Shown: in pieces, positions 10 to 7,880 of the stretch
How positions within the stretch are numbered: position 1 is the first letter of the stretch
Layout: each line of letters begins with the position of its first letter
Source of the DNA: Myxococcaceae bacterium
Lineage (GTDB): Bacteria > Myxococcota > Myxococcia > Myxococcales > Myxococcaceae
Direction of reading: 5' to 3'
DNA length: 42,907 nucleotides
NCBI GenBank assembly: GCA_017881265.1
Contig: JADGRA010000025.1
Span: 1 to 42,907 of the forward strand
Notes under the pieces: model-generated
Databases searched by the model: none
What the model was told of the DNA's origin: nothing
The model's input: only the letters and a program-made list of their open reading frames with translations
Position numbers and translations under genes: made by a program

Positions 10-789
10 TCACAGCGTCCACCTCGGCGCGAAGGCGCGCGCCCCGCCCGGGGCCACGGCTTCCACCATGGGCAGGCCGTACAGGGACTCCAGCCGCCCG
101 GCCGACAGCCACTCGGCCGCCGGGCCGTGACCCAGCACGCCCCCGTCCCGCAGCAAAAGGACGTGGTCCGCCACGCTGGCGGCGAGGTTGGCGTCGTGCA
201 GCACCGCCACCACGGCGAGTCCCGCGTCCACCCGCGCACGCACCCGCTGCAGGACGTGCACCTGGTGGCGCAAGTCCAGGAAGGCCGTCGGCTCGTCGAG
301 GAGCAACAGTTCCGGGCCCTGGGCCAGCGCCCGGGCAAGCAGCAACAGCCGCCGCTCCCCGCCGGACAGCTCGCCGGTGCGCCGGCTGGCCAGGTGGGCA
401 ATGTCCAACTCCTCCAGGGCGGCGCGGGCGAGGCTGAGGTCTCGCTCGGACGGCAGGCCCCAGGCCCCAAGGTGGGGTGCCCGTCCCATGAGGACGAGTT
501 CCAGCCCGGTGAAGCCCCCGTCCGCCTCAAACGTCTGCGGCACCCAGGCCACCCGGCGCGCCAGCTGCTGGCGTTCCCAGCGCGCTGCGGCCTGCCCGAA
601 GAGGAGGACGTCGCCGGACAGCGGCGGAAGCCACCCCAGCGCAGTGCGCAACAGGGTGCTTTTGCCCGAGCCGTTGGGGCCCAGCACCGCCCACAGCGAG
701 CCTTTGGCCACCTCGAAGCTGACGCCCGAGGCCACCTGGACGCGGCCGTACCCCACCGCGAGAGCGCGCGCGGACAACAGGGCACTCAC
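10..789 (-). CDS. btuD: Vitamin B12 ABC importer, ATP-binding protein
   Basis: Cytoplasmic ATPase predicted to power cobalamin import through BtuC. The 259-residue product has a Walker A motif GPNGSGKS (about residues 37-44), an ABC signature LSGGE (about 141-145) and a Walker B LLLLDEP (about 161-167). It also has an H-loop histidine in VLHDAN, so it looks catalytically intact. The length fits BtuD/FecE-type ATPases. I chose the GTG start because it overlaps the btuC stop in a GTGA junction, the pattern used throughout this operon. It is the last gene seen of the riboswitch-controlled B12 operon; the window ends 9 bases after its stop, so further downstream genes cannot be excluded. Sequence alone cannot fully separate B12 from siderophore ATPases. 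The specificity call comes from the riboswitch and the neighbours. Confidence 0.9.
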   Translation of the reverse strand: MSALLSARALAVGYGRVQVASGVSFEVAKGSLWAVLGPNGSGKSTLLRTALGWLPPLSGDVLLFGQAAARWERQQLARRVAWVPQTFEADGGFTGLELVLMGRAPHLGAWGLPSERDLSLARAALEELDIAHLASRRTGELSGGERRLLLLARALAQGPELLLLDEPTAFLDLRHQVHVLQRVRARVDAGLAVVAVLHDANLAASVADHVLLLRDGGVLGHGPAAEWLSAGRLESLYGLPMVEAVAPGGARAFAPRWTL

Positions 790-1817
790 GGCGGCACCTG
801 CCCGCGCTGCAGGAGGAAGAGGAAGAGCGGACCACCCAGCACCGCCGTCACCACGCCCACCGGCAGCTCGGCATGAAACACGGGAAACAAGAGCCGCGTG
901 AGGAGGTCCGACAGCACCAGGAAGCCGGCGCCGGCCAGCGCACTCGCCGGGACGAGGAGCCGCTGGTCCGGCCCCAGCAGCAGCCGCAGCAGGTGCGGGA
1001 CGATGAGGCCGACAAAGCCCACCAGCCCGGAGAGCGCCACCGCCCCGGCCACGCTGAGGGAGGCGGCGAGCAGGACGATGGTGCGCGTGCGCTGTACCGG
1101 CACGCCCAAGGACGCCGCATCCTCGTCGCCCAGGGACAGGAGATTCAGGCGGCCAGACTGCCGCCACAGCACCGCCAGGCAGGCCAGCTGCAGCCCCGCC
1201 GCCCCGGCCAGCGTCCGGGGCGCCTCGTAGCCGAGGCTTCCCGCCAGCCAGTAGAGGATTTCCCCCACCCGGTCCGGCGAGACCAGGGTCTTGATGCAGG
1301 TGATGGCGGCCGCGGCGAAGGCGTTGAAGACGACGCCCGTCAGCAACGCCGCGTAGGGGGAGCGGCGGCTTCGGCCCACCGCCAGCACCAGCGCCATGGC
1401 GGCCACCGAGCCGAGGAAGGCGAAGAGGGACGGGCCCACCAGCGCCGTCAGCCCCACCGCCAGCGCCACCGTCGCCCCGAGGGCCGCCCCGCCGGACACG
1501 CCGAGGATGAAGGGGTCCGCCAGCGGGTTCTTCAGAAGCCCCTGCAGCGCGCTGCCGCTGGCCGCCAACGCCGCGCCCACCAGCGCGCCCAGCACCGCGC
1601 GGGGCACGCGCAGCCGCCACAGCACGGTGGCGTCCACCGAGGCGGGAAGGCGCAGCGCCCGGCCGAGGGCCAGGGGGTACTCGCCGACGACGGCCGACAG
1701 AAGCATCGCCGCCAGGGCGCCACCAGCCAACAGCGCGAGGATGGCGGTGGCCCGGCCCGCCGAGAAGCGCAGCTCGGCTGCGGCAGCTCGCCGCGGGGCG
1801 AGGGCGACGGCATTCAC
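786..1817 (-). CDS. btuC: Vitamin B12 ABC importer, permease
   Basis: Inner-membrane permease of the FecCD/BtuC family, 343 residues, close to the usual 320-350. Many hydrophobic segments are visible, starting with ATAILALLAGGALAAMLL near the N terminus. Family signatures include RVPRAVLGALVGAALA, GSALQGLLKNPLADPFILGVSGGA and GLVGFVGLIVPH, the last being the region that contacts the ATPase. The GTG start overlaps the btuF stop (GTGA at 1814-1817), and the stop overlaps the btuD start the same way, so translation is probably coupled. A longer in-frame opening upstream reads as proline/glycine-rich low-complexity sequence inside btuF and is rejected as the start. It should form a BtuC2D2 complex with BtuF as periplasmic donor. 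Confidence 0.92.
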   Translation of the reverse strand: MNAVALAPRRAAAAELRFSAGRATAILALLAGGALAAMLLSAVVGEYPLALGRALRLPASVDATVLWRLRVPRAVLGALVGAALAASGSALQGLLKNPLADPFILGVSGGAALGATVALAVGLTALVGPSLFAFLGSVAAMALVLAVGRSRRSPYAALLTGVVFNAFAAAAITCIKTLVSPDRVGEILYWLAGSLGYEAPRTLAGAAGLQLACLAVLWRQSGRLNLLSLGDEDAASLGVPVQRTRTIVLLAASLSVAGAVALSGLVGFVGLIVPHLLRLLLGPDQRLLVPASALAGAGFLVLSDLLTRLLFPVFHAELPVGVVTAVLGGPLFLFLLQRGQVPP

Positions 1818-2668
1818 CGGCCCGCCTCCGGGGCCAGGGTGGGGTGCAGCACGAGGAAGAGTTCCTCCAGCCCCTGGCCCAGGGCCGGGCCCGGGTGCAG
1901 CAGGGCCGCCGAGGGAAGGCGAACCCAACGCGCCTCGCGCAGCCCGGGCAGGGACTGCAGCGCCTCCCGCCCGGCCGCCCCCTCGGAGGCGTCCAGCACC
2001 ACGTCCGGGCGGGCGCCCAGGGCGCGCTCCACCGACCAGACCGGGTAGGCCCGGCCGGCGTCGGCCGCCACGTTGGTGCCCCCGGCGTCCGAGAGCAATT
2101 CATCGGCGAAGCTTCCCGGCCCCGCCACCACCAGCGGCTCCAAGCCGTACGCAAACAGCACGCGCACCGGCCGGAGCCCGCGGGCCCGCGCCCGTACCCG
2201 GGCGCGCGTCGCCTCCAGGCCCTGCGCCAACTCCTCCCCCCGTCTGGTCCGCCCGAGCGCCATTGCGGTGGCCCGCAGCGCGGCCAGCACGTCCTCCACC
2301 GAGGAAAGCCGCAGCGCGAGGATGCTGATGCGGAGGCCGGCCAGGGCTTCCACCGGCGCACGGTTGCCGGGGCCCGGCTGTACCAGCACCAGGTCCGGCT
2401 TCAGCGCCGCCACCGCCTCGACGCTTGGGTCCACGAAGCCGCCCACGCGTGGTAGCGCCCCCACCTCGGGCCGCTCGTCGAAGCGCGAGACGCCCACCAG
2501 GACGTCCCCCGCCCCGAGCGCCAGCACGGTGTCCGTCAGTGACGGCGCGAGCGTCACCACGCGGTGCACCACCGACGGGGCCGGTGGCCCGAGCCGCTGC
2601 ACCGAGGCGGACTCCGGGCCGGCCGCGGCAAGGGCGCCCAGCGTCAGCAGTGCAGCCAGGGCACTCAC
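1814..2668 (-). CDS. btuF: Cobalamin-binding periplasmic protein
   Basis: Helical-backbone substrate-binding protein of the BtuF/FhuD type, 284 residues. It should capture cobalamin in the periplasm and hand it to BtuCD. A hydrophobic N terminus (SALAALLTLGALAAAG) acts as a signal peptide with no lipobox. The mature part shows the family pattern: RVVTLAPSLTDTVLALGAGDVLVGVS, then GGFVDPSVEAVAALKPDLVL, and later AGGTNVAAD and RPDVVLDAS. The GTG start lies in a GTGA overlap with the stop of the upstream lipoprotein gene. FhuD-like iron carriers share this fold. The B12 assignment rests on the riboswitch and the adjacent btuC, btuD and btuB. Confidence 0.9.
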   Translation of the reverse strand: MSALAALLTLGALAAAGPESASVQRLGPPAPSVVHRVVTLAPSLTDTVLALGAGDVLVGVSRFDERPEVGALPRVGGFVDPSVEAVAALKPDLVLVQPGPGNRAPVEALAGLRISILALRLSSVEDVLAALRATAMALGRTRRGEELAQGLEATRARVRARARGLRPVRVLFAYGLEPLVVAGPGSFADELLSDAGGTNVAADAGRAYPVWSVERALGARPDVVLDASEGAAGREALQSLPGLREARWVRLPSAALLHPGPALGQGLEELFLVLHPTLAPEAGR

Positions 2669-4392
2669 GGCACGCTGAGGATGTCCGAGACGCTGGAAAG
2701 CCCGGGGGGACACGGCTGCAACGGCACGCCCCCGTCCGCCCCGTAGCCCACGACTTGGGTGAGCTGCGTTTGGCCGATGTCGAGGACGAAGAGGCGCCCC
2801 GAGCTCTGGTCGCCGACATAGGCCCGGCCGTCGACGACGGCCAGCGTGCCGGCAATGGGCGGCGTGCAGGCGGGGCCAGCGTCCGGGCACTGGGGAGACC
2901 AGGCCGACAAAAGGGCATCGTTGGTGTCGAGCAGCAGCACCCCGGAGTGGTCCACCGACAGCGTGGCGAAGGTGCTTGGGTCGTACTGCACCTGCCCGAA
3001 GCACCCCACCAGCAGCCGTCCGCCGGCCTCCGCCACGGAGACGGCGTCGAGACAGACGCCGGCGTCGAGGGTGACGACCTGGGAGATGCTGCCGACACCC
3101 GCGTCACTGAGCGGCTGCGCGGGGTCGATTTTCACCAGGACGGACGGGCCCGCCGGCTGGTAGCTGGGGGTGAGGTTGTTGAGGACGACGTAGACGTACC
3201 CGCCGTGGAAGAGGGCCTGGCTCGGCCGCGGGTCCGAGGCGCCGCCGTCAAAGGTTGGAAGCAGCACGCCCTTCAAGTCGTAAGTGCCCACCAGCACCGG
3301 GGCATAGGGCTGGTTGAGGTTGAGACGCACCACGGTGCCGCCGGCCGCCTGGGTCGGTGGGAGGCCACCGTAGAGGGGCACGAAGATGTCATTGCCCACG
3401 CGCGCGTACGGCTCTGGCACGCTGTTGGGCCCAAACGCGTAGCCGCCATTCACGGCGAGGCCGAGGCCCTGCAGGCCGCCGTCCGGCATGAAGACGGTGG
3501 CGGCGGCGGCGGGCGGACCGCTGAAGATGCTGAGGGTGTTGGAGTTGCCGTCGACGACGTACACGTAGGACACGTTTTGGGAACGGCTGTCGACCTCGAC
3601 GAAATCCGGCCCACCTCCCAATGGAAGCGTCTCCGGCGCCACCAGGGCGAGGTTGCGCAGTGCCAGCTCGCCGAGGGCGCCCTCTGCGCCGACGAGAAGC
3701 GCATCCCCGAGGAGGCCCAACCCTCCGGGAACGTTGCCCCCCGGGACGGCCGGGCCGGCCAGGGGCTGGACCGGGCTGTCGAAGATGGGAGCCACCTTCC
3801 CCGGGGTGGCGATGCACGCCACCACGGCGTCCGGGAGGCAGGCCCCTTGCGTCGGGCCATTCGGCGTGGGGTGACAGCCGTAGCCTTGCGCGCAGGCGTT
3901 TCCGCAGGCGCCGCAGTTGTTCGGGTCGGTGCTCAGCGTTACGCAGGCGCCATTGCAATCGACGGCCGTTCCGCAACTGGTTTGGCACACGCCCCCACCG
4001 GCGTCATTCGGCGCGCACACCTGTCCGGAGCCGCACACCGCGCCGCCACCGCCGGCGCACCCGCCGCAATTCTTGGGGTCCGTCGTGATGTCGGTGCACG
4101 TGCCATTGCACTGCAGGATGGTGGTGCCGCCGTCCGGCAGCGCCTCCCCCTTCTGGCATTCGCACTGTCCGGAGCCACCATCTTCGATGGGGACGCACAC
4201 CGCCCGGGGCTGGCAGGCATTGCCGCAGGCACCGCAGTTGGCCGGGTCCGAATTCAGGTAGACGCACGTGACGTTGCACTCGACCGTGCCCCCCACGCAC
4301 ACGAGCGAGCTCGTCTGCAGGCAACCCGTCAGCGCGACCCCGGCCAACAGCCCCAGCACCCCCAACGTCAGCAACCACCCTCGCTTGTCCAT
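2665..4392 (-). CDS. Cys-rich beta-propeller-like lipoprotein of B12 operon
   Basis: A 575-residue predicted lipoprotein with a charged start (MDKRG), a hydrophobic stretch and the lipobox LTGC (Cys24). Residues about 30-190 contain three cysteine-rich units built on CNGxC...DPxNCGxCG...C, a pattern common in Myxococcota surface proteins. The rest resembles repeat-propeller proteins, with recurring strands such as YVYVVDGNSNTLSIF, YVVLNNL, GVLLLDTND and GRLFVLDIG. It sits between btuB and btuF and is coupled on both sides. Its ATG overlaps the btuB stop (TGATG); a GTG one codon earlier is possible. A GGGGAGG stretch lies about 10 bases upstream of the ATG. Its role is not known to me. By context it may bind cobalamin at the cell surface and deliver it to BtuB, as BtuG does in Bacteroides. 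That is inference. Confidence 0.75.
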   Translation of the reverse strand: MDKRGWLLTLGVLGLLAGVALTGCLQTSSLVCVGGTVECNVTCVYLNSDPANCGACGNACQPRAVCVPIEDGGSGQCECQKGEALPDGGTTILQCNGTCTDITTDPKNCGGCAGGGGAVCGSGQVCAPNDAGGGVCQTSCGTAVDCNGACVTLSTDPNNCGACGNACAQGYGCHPTPNGPTQGACLPDAVVACIATPGKVAPIFDSPVQPLAGPAVPGGNVPGGLGLLGDALLVGAEGALGELALRNLALVAPETLPLGGGPDFVEVDSRSQNVSYVYVVDGNSNTLSIFSGPPAAAATVFMPDGGLQGLGLAVNGGYAFGPNSVPEPYARVGNDIFVPLYGGLPPTQAAGGTVVRLNLNQPYAPVLVGTYDLKGVLLPTFDGGASDPRPSQALFHGGYVYVVLNNLTPSYQPAGPSVLVKIDPAQPLSDAGVGSISQVVTLDAGVCLDAVSVAEAGGRLLVGCFGQVQYDPSTFATLSVDHSGVLLLDTNDALLSAWSPQCPDAGPACTPPIAGTLAVVDGRAYVGDQSSGRLFVLDIGQTQLTQVVGYGADGGVPLQPCPPGLSSVSDILSVP

Positions 4393-6338
4393 CACCGCGG
4401 TGCCTCCCCTTCATGTGCTGTGGTCGGTGCTGCCTCGCCCAGCGCCAGCGCGAGTGTCGCGAACACCGCGCGACCCGGAAGTGGGTAACCGTCCAGGTCC
4501 TGTCCCTGGACGTTGAAGATGTTGTTCACCTGCAGCGAGGCGGTGAGGCGCTTCCACAGCACCACGTCCACCCCGGCCCCGACGAAGACGTGTCCGGGTA
4601 GCATGAGGATGCCGGCCCGGTTGACGGTGACCGAGGAACGGCCCTGCACCTGCACCCGGGCCTGCAGCCAGTCCGGGCCTGCCGCAATCCGCGCCGAGCC
4701 CAGCTGGGCCGGGCGGTACGGCAGTGGCTTGCCGAAGTACGGCGCCACGTCGCGCACGTTCTCGGTTTGCTGCAGCGTGTAGCTGCCTTGCGCATCCAGC
4801 CAGGGCCAGGGCCGCACGCGGGCCTCGGCCTCCATTCCCCAGGCGTCGGCGACGCTGATGTTGTTGGGCCGGGCGAAGAAGGGCGGGTAGTACTCGTAGG
4901 TGATGAGGTCCTGGTAGCGCGTCCAGAAGCCGCCCACGCTGCCGGTGGCCCAGCGGCTGGCGTAGACGAGCGCGCCGTCTACCGAGAAGCTGCGCTCGGG
5001 CTGCAGGTTTGGGTTCACCCCCAGCGTCCCGGTCGGGAGGTACAATTCATAGAAGGAAGGCGGCCGAAAGCCATAGCCGGCGTTGGCCCGCACCGAGAAG
5101 CCCAACGGCAGCCCCACCGACACGCCCAGCTTGGGAGAGGCAGCAACGTAGGGGCCGACCTGGTCCAGGCCAAGCGCCCCCACCAGCGAGGCGCGCCCCT
5201 GAAACAGAAGCCACTCGTCGCGCAGGCTGAGCGAGGTAAGCGCCCAGGTGGGGGAACCCCCGGTGGCGTGCACGGAGGCGACGCCCACCGACGCCGTGGC
5301 CGCCAGGGCGTGCGGCCCCAGCGGCCAGGCGGCGTCCGCGGTGGCGCCCGCCTGCCACAGCCGGTCGTATTCGCCGGCGCCAAAGCTGCCCCCGGTCAGG
5401 TTGTCCGTCGTCCGACGGCTGTCCAGGCGCAGCGAAAGAGAGAGTCCGCTGGCGAAGGTGTGCTGCGTGCGGACGGAGGCCAGCACCCGGGAGGCACTCT
5501 GCTCGCTGTTGGGCGTCGGGTGCTCCTCGGTCCCGGCGAGGCCGCGCGACAGCACGTCCGCCTCGAGCAGCGCGTCGAGGGCCCAGCCCGAAATGTCCCA
5601 GCCCTGCTTGAGAAGCCCGCCGCCGGAGGCGGACTGGTTGTTGACGCGCTGGACCGGCATCCCGACCGCACCGGGTACGCCCACGTCCACCAGGGGCTGG
5701 TAGCTGTAGGTGAAGTCGCCCTGGCTGTAGGCCCCATGCACCAGCAAAAGGCCCGTCCCGCCAAGGACGTGTCCGGAGGCGCCGAGGCTTCCTCGGAAGG
5801 TGCCGAAGCTTCCGGCGGTGAAGTCCCCGAAGGCAGAAGGCGTGTCGGTGGCCTTGCGCGTGACGAGATTGACGACGCCGCCGAGCGCCAGGGGTCCATA
5901 GCTGGCACTTGCGCTGCCGCGCAGCACCTCCGCCCGCTCGAGAATCGCCGGCGGGATGAGGCTGATGTCCGCGATGTCGCCGGGGCCGTTGAGCGGCATG
6001 CCATCCAGAAGGACCAGCACGCCGGTGTTGGGGGCACCGCGCAGCGAGATGCTCTCGCTCTGCCCCACGCCGCCGGTGCTGTTGACGACGGCGCCGGGCA
6101 CCTCGGACAGGAGGGCCCCGGTGGACAGCACTTCGGAGCGACGCCCGGCCATGTCCACCACCGACGTCTGGCCGGTAGGGTCACGCTGGGAAGGCGACTC
6201 GGGGGATGGGGGGGCGGGCGGCAAGGGCACCGTCACCGGGGCAAGCAACACAGGGCCGGAGGACGACTGTCCCCAGGCCAGCGAGGCCATCCCCAACGCC
6301 GGTCCCAGCCCACATCGGGCCCACCGCCAAAACGCCAT
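4392..6338 (-). CDS. btuB: TonB-dependent vitamin B12 receptor
   Basis: Outer-membrane TonB-dependent transporter, 648 residues, close to E. coli BtuB in length. A signal peptide ends near residue 24 (ASLAWGQ), and a proline-rich linker follows. The plug domain has SESISLRGAPNTGVLVLLDGMPLNG, VLRGSASASYGPLALGGVVNLVTRK and related motifs. The barrel includes GYGFRPPSFYELY and NPNLQPERS, typical of this superfamily. The true start is the ATG at 6338, preceded by AGGAAGG at 8-base spacing. Reading further upstream would run through the riboswitch. After the final strand (VFATLALAL) there is a tail of about 15 residues, whereas most such barrels end at an aromatic residue. First gene of the riboswitch-controlled operon; the stop overlaps the next ATG. 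Confidence 0.92.
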   Translation of the reverse strand: MAFWRWARCGLGPALGMASLAWGQSSSGPVLLAPVTVPLPPAPPSPESPSQRDPTGQTSVVDMAGRRSEVLSTGALLSEVPGAVVNSTGGVGQSESISLRGAPNTGVLVLLDGMPLNGPGDIADISLIPPAILERAEVLRGSASASYGPLALGGVVNLVTRKATDTPSAFGDFTAGSFGTFRGSLGASGHVLGGTGLLLVHGAYSQGDFTYSYQPLVDVGVPGAVGMPVQRVNNQSASGGGLLKQGWDISGWALDALLEADVLSRGLAGTEEHPTPNSEQSASRVLASVRTQHTFASGLSLSLRLDSRRTTDNLTGGSFGAGEYDRLWQAGATADAAWPLGPHALAATASVGVASVHATGGSPTWALTSLSLRDEWLLFQGRASLVGALGLDQVGPYVAASPKLGVSVGLPLGFSVRANAGYGFRPPSFYELYLPTGTLGVNPNLQPERSFSVDGALVYASRWATGSVGGFWTRYQDLITYEYYPPFFARPNNISVADAWGMEAEARVRPWPWLDAQGSYTLQQTENVRDVAPYFGKPLPYRPAQLGSARIAAGPDWLQARVQVQGRSSVTVNRAGILMLPGHVFVGAGVDVVLWKRLTASLQVNNIFNVQGQDLDGYPLPGRAVFATLALALGEAAPTTAHEGEAPR

Positions 6339-6377: not shown

Positions 6378-6409
6378 CACCCAGGCGACCCTCCAGGGAG
6401 TCGTCCGTA

Positions 6410-6641
6410 CCTCGGGCAGGTCTCCTGGCTTCCGGAACCCGGACGCTGCTGCACCCCACTGGTGCGTTTGCGCCCGACGCCAGCGTCCTCCCACCTTCCC
6501 GCGGGCCCCGAGTGAGGTCCGCAGTGGTGACTGCCGGAGGCTATGGCGGGCCCTGTTCCTCAGGGCCGTCCGGTCACAGTGGCGGGACCGCGCCGGATTC
6601 TCACCGGCTTCCCTCTTCGCCCAACGTGGGCACCCGAAGGC
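6410..6641 (-). promoter_or_regulatory. Cobalamin (B12) riboswitch aptamer
   Basis: The minus strand carries the conserved B12 box AGCCAGGAGACCUGCC (6416-6431). It also carries the upstream core GGGAAGCCGGUGAGAAUCC (about 6594-6614) followed by GCGGUCCCGCCACUGU, all hallmarks of the AdoCbl aptamer. The closing P1 helix can form between CCUUCGGG (6633-6640) and CCCGAGG (6410-6416), which sets the limits. Between the core and the B12 box lies a long GC-rich peripheral domain. The aptamer is followed by an RBS-hiding hairpin before btuB, so B12 is predicted to repress translation of the uptake operon. Confidence 0.93.
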
Positions 6642-6804
6642 AGGGCGAGGTCTCGCACGGGGCGCCTCGGTGCGCAAGTCAGACTGATGGTGAAACGGGG
6701 CGTCCACGTCGCAGCCTGTGACGCCGAGGCGGGCGCTCGCTCCAAGGGCGAGGTTGGGGACTGGCGCGGCACGTTGCCAGGTCCTGGGGGCGGCGGTGGG
6801 CGGA

Positions 6805-6937: not shown

Positions 6938-7282
6938 ATGCGCCGCCGCATCCTTAGTGTCCTGTGTCTGTCGGCTCTCCTCGTCGGCTGCGGAAGCAGC
7001 AGCCCCAGCGACACCAGTACGCTGGCCGCCACCTGCGAGTCCGCATCCAACGCGCTCTGTACCCGAGCGTCCAACTGCGGCTTGCTCTCTAGCCTGGGCT
7101 TCTCCTCGGTGGCGGCGTGCGTCACCGCGGCCGAGAATCTAGCCGGGTGCTCCACCAAGGTTTGCCCCAGCGGGACGACCTACGACAGCAGTGTGGCGAG
7201 CAACTGCCTCAGCGACATCCAGAAGGGCGCGTGTGGCAGCGGCGAGCCGGGCAGTTGTGCCAGCGGGTACCTGTGCCGGTGA
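6938..7282 (+). CDS. Small cysteine-rich lipoprotein
   Basis: 114-residue predicted lipoprotein with an N terminus MRRR, a hydrophobic core and the lipobox LVGC (Cys18), then a Gly/Ser-rich linker. The mature part has about ten cysteines, beginning with a C-x7-C-x5-C pattern. The ATG at 6938 was chosen because it gives a proper signal peptide; a G-rich run lies just upstream. The reading continues further upstream but has no signal sequence there. It is a tandem paralogue of the protein at 7533-7880, sharing cysteine order and spacing. I do not recognise a named family. The cysteine pattern suggests a disulfide-stabilised extracytoplasmic protein. Confidence 0.75.
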   Translation: MRRRILSVLCLSALLVGCGSSSPSDTSTLAATCESASNALCTRASNCGLLSSLGFSSVAACVTAAENLAGCSTKVCPSGTTYDSSVASNCLSDIQKGACGSGEPGSCASGYLCR

Positions 7283-7414: not shown

Positions 7415-7532
7415 CGCCTGTGGGCGCCTCCTCAGGGCTTGCGAAGCAGCGCCTGCTTTGGGAAGACAGCATGCCCCTGGGCGGCGGGGACTGTTTCCCC
7501 TGTGGCCGTCATTCCAACCGAGGAGTCCCCGA

Positions 7533-7880
7533 GTGCGTCTTGTCGGTCTCGCCATCTGTCTTTGCATCGCGGCCACGGGCTGCGGAGCCACCATCGTCAA
7601 GAATGACGTGAGTGGCCCCGTCGCAGCGTGCGACTCGTTTGCCTACGCAAGCTGCAACCGGCTGAGTCAGTGCCAGGCCGGCGTCGGCGTCGACAACTGC
7701 GCGCAGCTGCTGAGCAACAAGTTGAATTGTTCCAAGGCCAACTGCGGCACCGGGGTCTACAGCCCCAGCGGAGCCCAGGCCTGCCTGGACGCGTACAACA
7801 ACCAGGTCTGCGCGGATTCCATCGGCAACGTCATCCCCGCCGCCTGCTCCTCGAGCAACACCATCTGCGCGGGGCCGTAA
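7533..7880 (+). CDS. Small cysteine-rich lipoprotein, paralogue of upstream gene
   Basis: 115-residue predicted lipoprotein. The GTG start at 7533 has a good Shine-Dalgarno AGGAG seven bases upstream and opens a hydrophobic signal ending in the lipobox ATGC (Cys17). The mature region repeats the C-x7-C-x5-C pattern of its neighbour at 6938-7282 and the later C-x4-C and paired cysteines, so the two look like a tandem duplication that has since diverged. The function is unknown. The gene ends 34 bases before the convergent cardiolipin synthase gene. Confidence 0.78.
   Translation: MRLVGLAICLCIAATGCGATIVKNDVSGPVAACDSFAYASCNRLSQCQAGVGVDNCAQLLSNKLNCSKANCGTGVYSPSGAQACLDAYNNQVCADSIGNVIPAACSSSNTICAGP

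Follow-up and report, generated by a model that had tools for sequence, protein, structure and literature searches.

A btuB-linked lipoprotein family of Myxococcota with a probable beta-propeller domain and a possible BtuG-like role

The window analyzed here, a stretch of 42,907 nucleotides from a Myxococcaceae bacterium (contig JADGRA010000025.1), carries a cobalamin riboswitch followed on the same strand by genes for a TonB-dependent receptor, a lipoprotein, a periplasmic binding protein, a permease and an ABC ATPase (Table 1). The top matches of BtuF, BtuC and BtuD are B12 or corrinoid transport models, although equivalog cut-offs are not reached, and the best named family of the receptor is TonB-B12 (1.8e-36), likewise under its cut-off. 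The stop codon of btuB and the start codon of the lipoprotein gene have one base in common (TGATG), and the lipoprotein stop overlaps the GTG start of btuF by four bases (GTGA). An earlier note on this DNA had given the lipoprotein gene its correct coordinates, strand and frame, and its account of a gene that shares codon letters with btuB on one side and btuF on the other, in an operon under a cobalamin riboswitch, is borne out. Divergent from the riboswitch, a short ORF at 6938-7282 (+) contains a lipobox-like stretch and several Cys and gave no Pfam match; a second short Cys-containing ORF at about 7532-7880 (+) resembles it by eye.

Table 1. Features of the B12 operon in the window, with the evidence for each.
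Feature	Position	Strand	Evidence and remarks
btuD, ABC ATPase	10..789	-	ABC_tran; best match corrinoid ABC transporter ATPase, under cut-off
btuC, permease	786..1817	-	FecCD 9e-81; BtuC best match 4.4e-69, under cut-off
btuF, periplasmic binding protein, GTG start	1814..2668	-	PF01497 2.9e-26; BtuF best match, under cut-off
Lipoprotein gene	2665..4392	-	575 aa; ATG at 4392, stop 2667-2665; translation and overlaps with btuB and btuF
C-terminal domain, residues 187-575 (~390 aa), inferred closed beta-propeller	2668..3834	-	Conservation, PDB profile matches, circular permutation
Cys-rich module, three NCGxCG-type repeats, about residues 29-186	3835..4308	-	NF041328, Stig1, repeat pattern
Signal peptide and lipobox LTGC, Cys24, Leu at +2	4321..4392	-	Read from translation
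btuB, TonB-dependent outer-membrane receptor, probable B12 receptor	4392..6338	-	Plug and TonB_dep_Rec domains; riboswitch and operon context
Cobalamin riboswitch (RF00174), 5' of btuB	6398..6652	-	72.4 bits (cut-off 31.5 bits), E 4.4e-16, full-length model match

The lipobox and the cysteine-rich N-terminal module that had been read from the window sequence are both confirmed. A lipobox is also found in most members of the family by pattern search, where the +2 residue is mostly Pro or Ser and is Lys in two members only. Inner-membrane lipoproteins of M. xanthus tend toward Lys at this position (PMC3222651). Because a lipobox is present and Lys is absent at +2, we infer that the window lipoprotein is located at the outer membrane, on either face. 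The lipoprotein export signal of Bacteroidota has been described as exclusive to Bacteroidetes (PMC6143338).

The Cys-rich module matches NF041328 (C_rich_MXAN6577; E 4.3e-24, 85 bits, under the cut-off of 100 bits) and Pfam Stig1 (E 3.7e-8). NF041328, the family of MXAN_6577-like cysteine-rich proteins, has no assigned function; its model is 145 positions long, is confined to the Cys-rich part and covers the N-terminal module of the window protein. All 30 aligned family members match this model (best 1.3e-49), and the module recurs in numerous Myxococcota proteins that are otherwise unrelated; a whole-protein search of the genome contigs gave 76 loci matched through it, in which the C-terminal-domain profile finds nothing. 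The number of NCGxCG-type repeats ranges from zero to six per member by pattern count, and the 15 members without any are either permuted or among the most divergent. The stalk described in the earlier note does exist, in Myxococcaceae-like genomes and in some relatives, but it is not a family-wide trait and is thus a lineage-specific addition. The Cys-rich family is named after MXAN_6577 of M. xanthus; a TonB-dependent receptor of that species, MXAN6579 (PMC3222651), is only two gene numbers away.

The C-terminal domain contains four Cys that are invariant in the family alignment (Cys193, Cys447, Cys464 and Cys561) and strongly conserved motifs that include GPG, CLN and SCxG. When the family profile was compared with the PDB, solved propellers ranked first, the best being the YVTN propeller 1l0q (3.6e-7) and the next-ranked also propellers; a single-sequence AlphaFold2 model of the domain was of low confidence (pLDDT 37). 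The halves of the domain occur in swapped order in several Myxococcota families, that is, the domain is circularly permuted, and a doubled profile raises the match in the permuted groups (g1 from 190 to 223, g2 from 231 to 348, g4 from 168 to 245) but leaves the score of g3, which is not permuted, at 386. Given this gain across the junction, the strands at the two ends of the window protein are neighbors, as in a propeller closed at its ends; in the permuted families they run on as a single stretch. The domain is thus a probable closed beta-propeller, probably seven-bladed judging from its size and from BtuG. The repeated propeller-like strands noticed at first reading were only an impression, which the family profiles and the circular permutation now support indirectly. 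The residues that seem to correspond to Cys561 and Cys193 fall in one contiguous stretch in two loci (L228 and L229), and a disulphide between these residues is therefore plausible.

A sequence search matched the C-terminal domain in 40 of 60 relatives, and its profile is present in 147 of the 193 Myxococcota genomes sampled, usually in one copy per genome, so that the domain is no generic propeller. We took 79 stretches around matches, 78 of which carry the domain, and tested the neighboring genes with the Btu proteins of the window itself. The gene btuB lies directly upstream on the same strand in 75 of these 78 loci, frequently with a 4-nt overlap, and most of the loci scanned have a cobalamin riboswitch ahead of btuB. 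Of the three remaining loci, two (L142 and L231) begin at a contig end, and one is a real exception: the copy at L119:6963-8744, the second in genome G010, stands directly before btuC with btuD further on and without btuB. Downstream, btuF or btuC follows within 1.2 kb in 53 of 78 loci, a count that includes some loci cut by contig ends. The loci span many families of Myxococcota; as they are related by descent, they do not represent 78 independent events. No relative was found in the viral contigs searched. The co-occurrence with btuB and the riboswitch that the earlier note proposed to look for in Myxococcota is clearly present, and the homologues do not lie mostly outside B12 loci. Literature searches for a Myxococcota counterpart of BtuG found none described, and this phylum-wide family of BtuB-partner propeller lipoproteins is apparently undescribed.

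The BtuG family of Bacteroidota corresponds to DUF5074/PF16819, and the structure of BtuG2 is PDB 3DSM. The window protein gave no match to this model at E 10, and among the 30 aligned members two are matched (best E 0.14). The divergent member L227 reaches 8.7e-4 and 18.9 bits against a cut-off of 27.2, and a direct search with DUF5074 in Myxococcota gave weak matches only, in 5 of 58 genomes. Since the curated cut-off was reached by no member tested, the family is not filed as a member of BtuG. In profile comparisons, for which the BtuG side was built from 23 Bacteroidota DUF5074 proteins and was deeper than the control sets, BtuG/DUF5074 was the best of three propeller families for every Myxococcota group. 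The window group scored 107, g1 172, g3 162, g2 115 and g4 100, compared with 22-37 for lactonase and 53-85 for YncE-like propellers. With the BtuG set cut to five sequences, the window group dropped to 53-78, g1 to 78-131 and g3 to 103-122, and at this matched depth the window group stands at 52.7 against YncE-like propellers. BtuG is accordingly the closest of the families compared, by a margin that is too small to settle descent versus convergence. The YncE-like/YVTN propellers (PF21783; 1l0q) belong to the same repeat class and include the best solved relative by profile, but they have no known link with btuB and score below BtuG for the groups compared. All 30 members have a C-terminal domain of negative net charge; this was not taken as evidence because BtuG-like proteins vary widely in charge.

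BtuG of Bacteroides is reported to be a seven-bladed propeller that forms a lid on BtuB and binds B12 with femtomolar affinity (PMC6143338, PMC10404256). Trp194, Trp272 and Tyr316 are among the residues of BtuG2 that contact the ligand (PMC10404256). The Myxococcota family resembles it in the lipoprotein signal (LTGC in the window protein), in the position beside btuB under a cobalamin riboswitch and in the probable propeller fold, and differs in the Cys-rich stalk of many members, the four invariant Cys of the propeller domain, the circularly permuted variants and the DUF5074 scores below cut-off. A lipobox, a probable propeller and, throughout Myxococcota, an association with btuB and the B12 riboswitch are best explained by a BtuG-like role, as the earlier note had proposed. 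We consider it probable that the product is an outer-membrane lipoprotein dedicated to BtuB, with a closed propeller that captures B12 in the manner of the BtuG lid. The propeller would bind cobamides outside the cell and pass them to BtuB, on which it would act as BtuG does in Bacteroides, and in Myxococcaceae-like members it would be held on a disulphide-rich spacer. That the protein is exposed on the cell surface, that it contacts BtuB and that it binds B12 are all predictions, and tight linkage to btuB is not by itself a demonstration of B12 binding. The genome of the bacterium (95.7% complete) encodes the B12-dependent class II ribonucleotide reductase NrdJ and the B12 domain of MetH, and no CobQ was found above cut-off; the organism therefore probably scavenges B12, although the absence of CobQ from an incomplete genome is not proof. 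If the favored reading is true, lipoprotein-assisted B12 capture by BtuB is no speciality of gut Bacteroides, and the btuB-tied propeller across Myxococcota offers a testable case of shared descent versus convergence.

As to origin, the earlier note considered the protein probably independent of BtuG, which the profile comparison does not support, BtuG/DUF5074 being the closest match with a small margin over YncE-like propellers for the window group; the comparison establishes neither a separate origin nor a BtuG ancestry. The family may be a divergent BtuG homologue, a reading to which we give slightly less than an even chance and in which the mechanism is as above and only the history differs: the lid would have been inherited by, or transferred between, Bacteroidota and Myxococcota, with the Cys-rich stalk a later addition and permutation in some lineages. 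Both families are lipoprotein propellers encoded beside btuB, and the alignment of g1, which has no stalk, to the BtuG/DUF5074 profile is nearly end-to-end (99.6%, over 322 columns). Its score of 172 compares with 69 for YncE-like propellers and 22 for lactonase. This signal is partly generic, however, since a comparison of DUF5074 with YncE-like propellers already gives 116, and the five-sequence BtuG set lowers the window group as given above. BtuG has also been reported as exclusive to Bacteroidetes, a BlastP search of 2018 having found no homologues elsewhere (PMC6143338).

Independent recruitment of a propeller as a BtuB partner seems to us rather unlikely. The scores below the DUF5074 cut-off in every tested member and the weak distinction of the window group from YncE-like propellers are in its favor, but BtuG is still the best match for each group among the families compared. 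The fuller version of this history, that Myxococcota independently adopted a B12-capturing propeller and kept it with btuB, while its blades were permuted in several lineages and a Cys-rich spacer was gained in others, is a shade less probable again.

It can also be speculated that the protein is a BtuB partner without B12 binding, namely an assembly, stability or docking subunit on either face of the outer membrane. BamB is a propeller lipoprotein with a role of this kind, and it is found among the weak matches of the full-length profile; moreover, the linkage is to btuB and not to all B12 genes, as btuF or btuC adjoin in 53 of 78 loci only. Riboswitch control and the BtuG precedent nevertheless favor ligand handling, and the conserved GPG, CLN and SCxG motifs fit a binding face, if only suggestively, so that we regard this alternative as improbable. 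A generic Cys-rich lipoprotein of Myxococcota that entered the operon by chance would agree with the 76 loci in which the module is unconnected with B12, yet it is contradicted by the C-terminal domain, which is specific to btuB loci across many families, and is very improbable indeed.

Accessory B12-binding lipoproteins of the Bacteroidota btu loci also include BtuJ (DUF4465) and BtuH. These belong to other families than the window protein, in which a domain search gave no match to DUF4465. DUF4465 has been reported in some Myxococcota (PMC13398666).

Some of the loci show further arrangements. In one genome from a genus with small genomes (g21), two copies of the family flank one btuB (L142:235-1252 and 3711-4778). 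Further cobalamin riboswitches are located 3' of the lipoprotein gene at L128:4515-4732, L130:11730-11925, L133:4907-5119, L136:5403-5614, L138:7429-7656 and L139:7001-7221, which suggests more B12-controlled genes at these loci.
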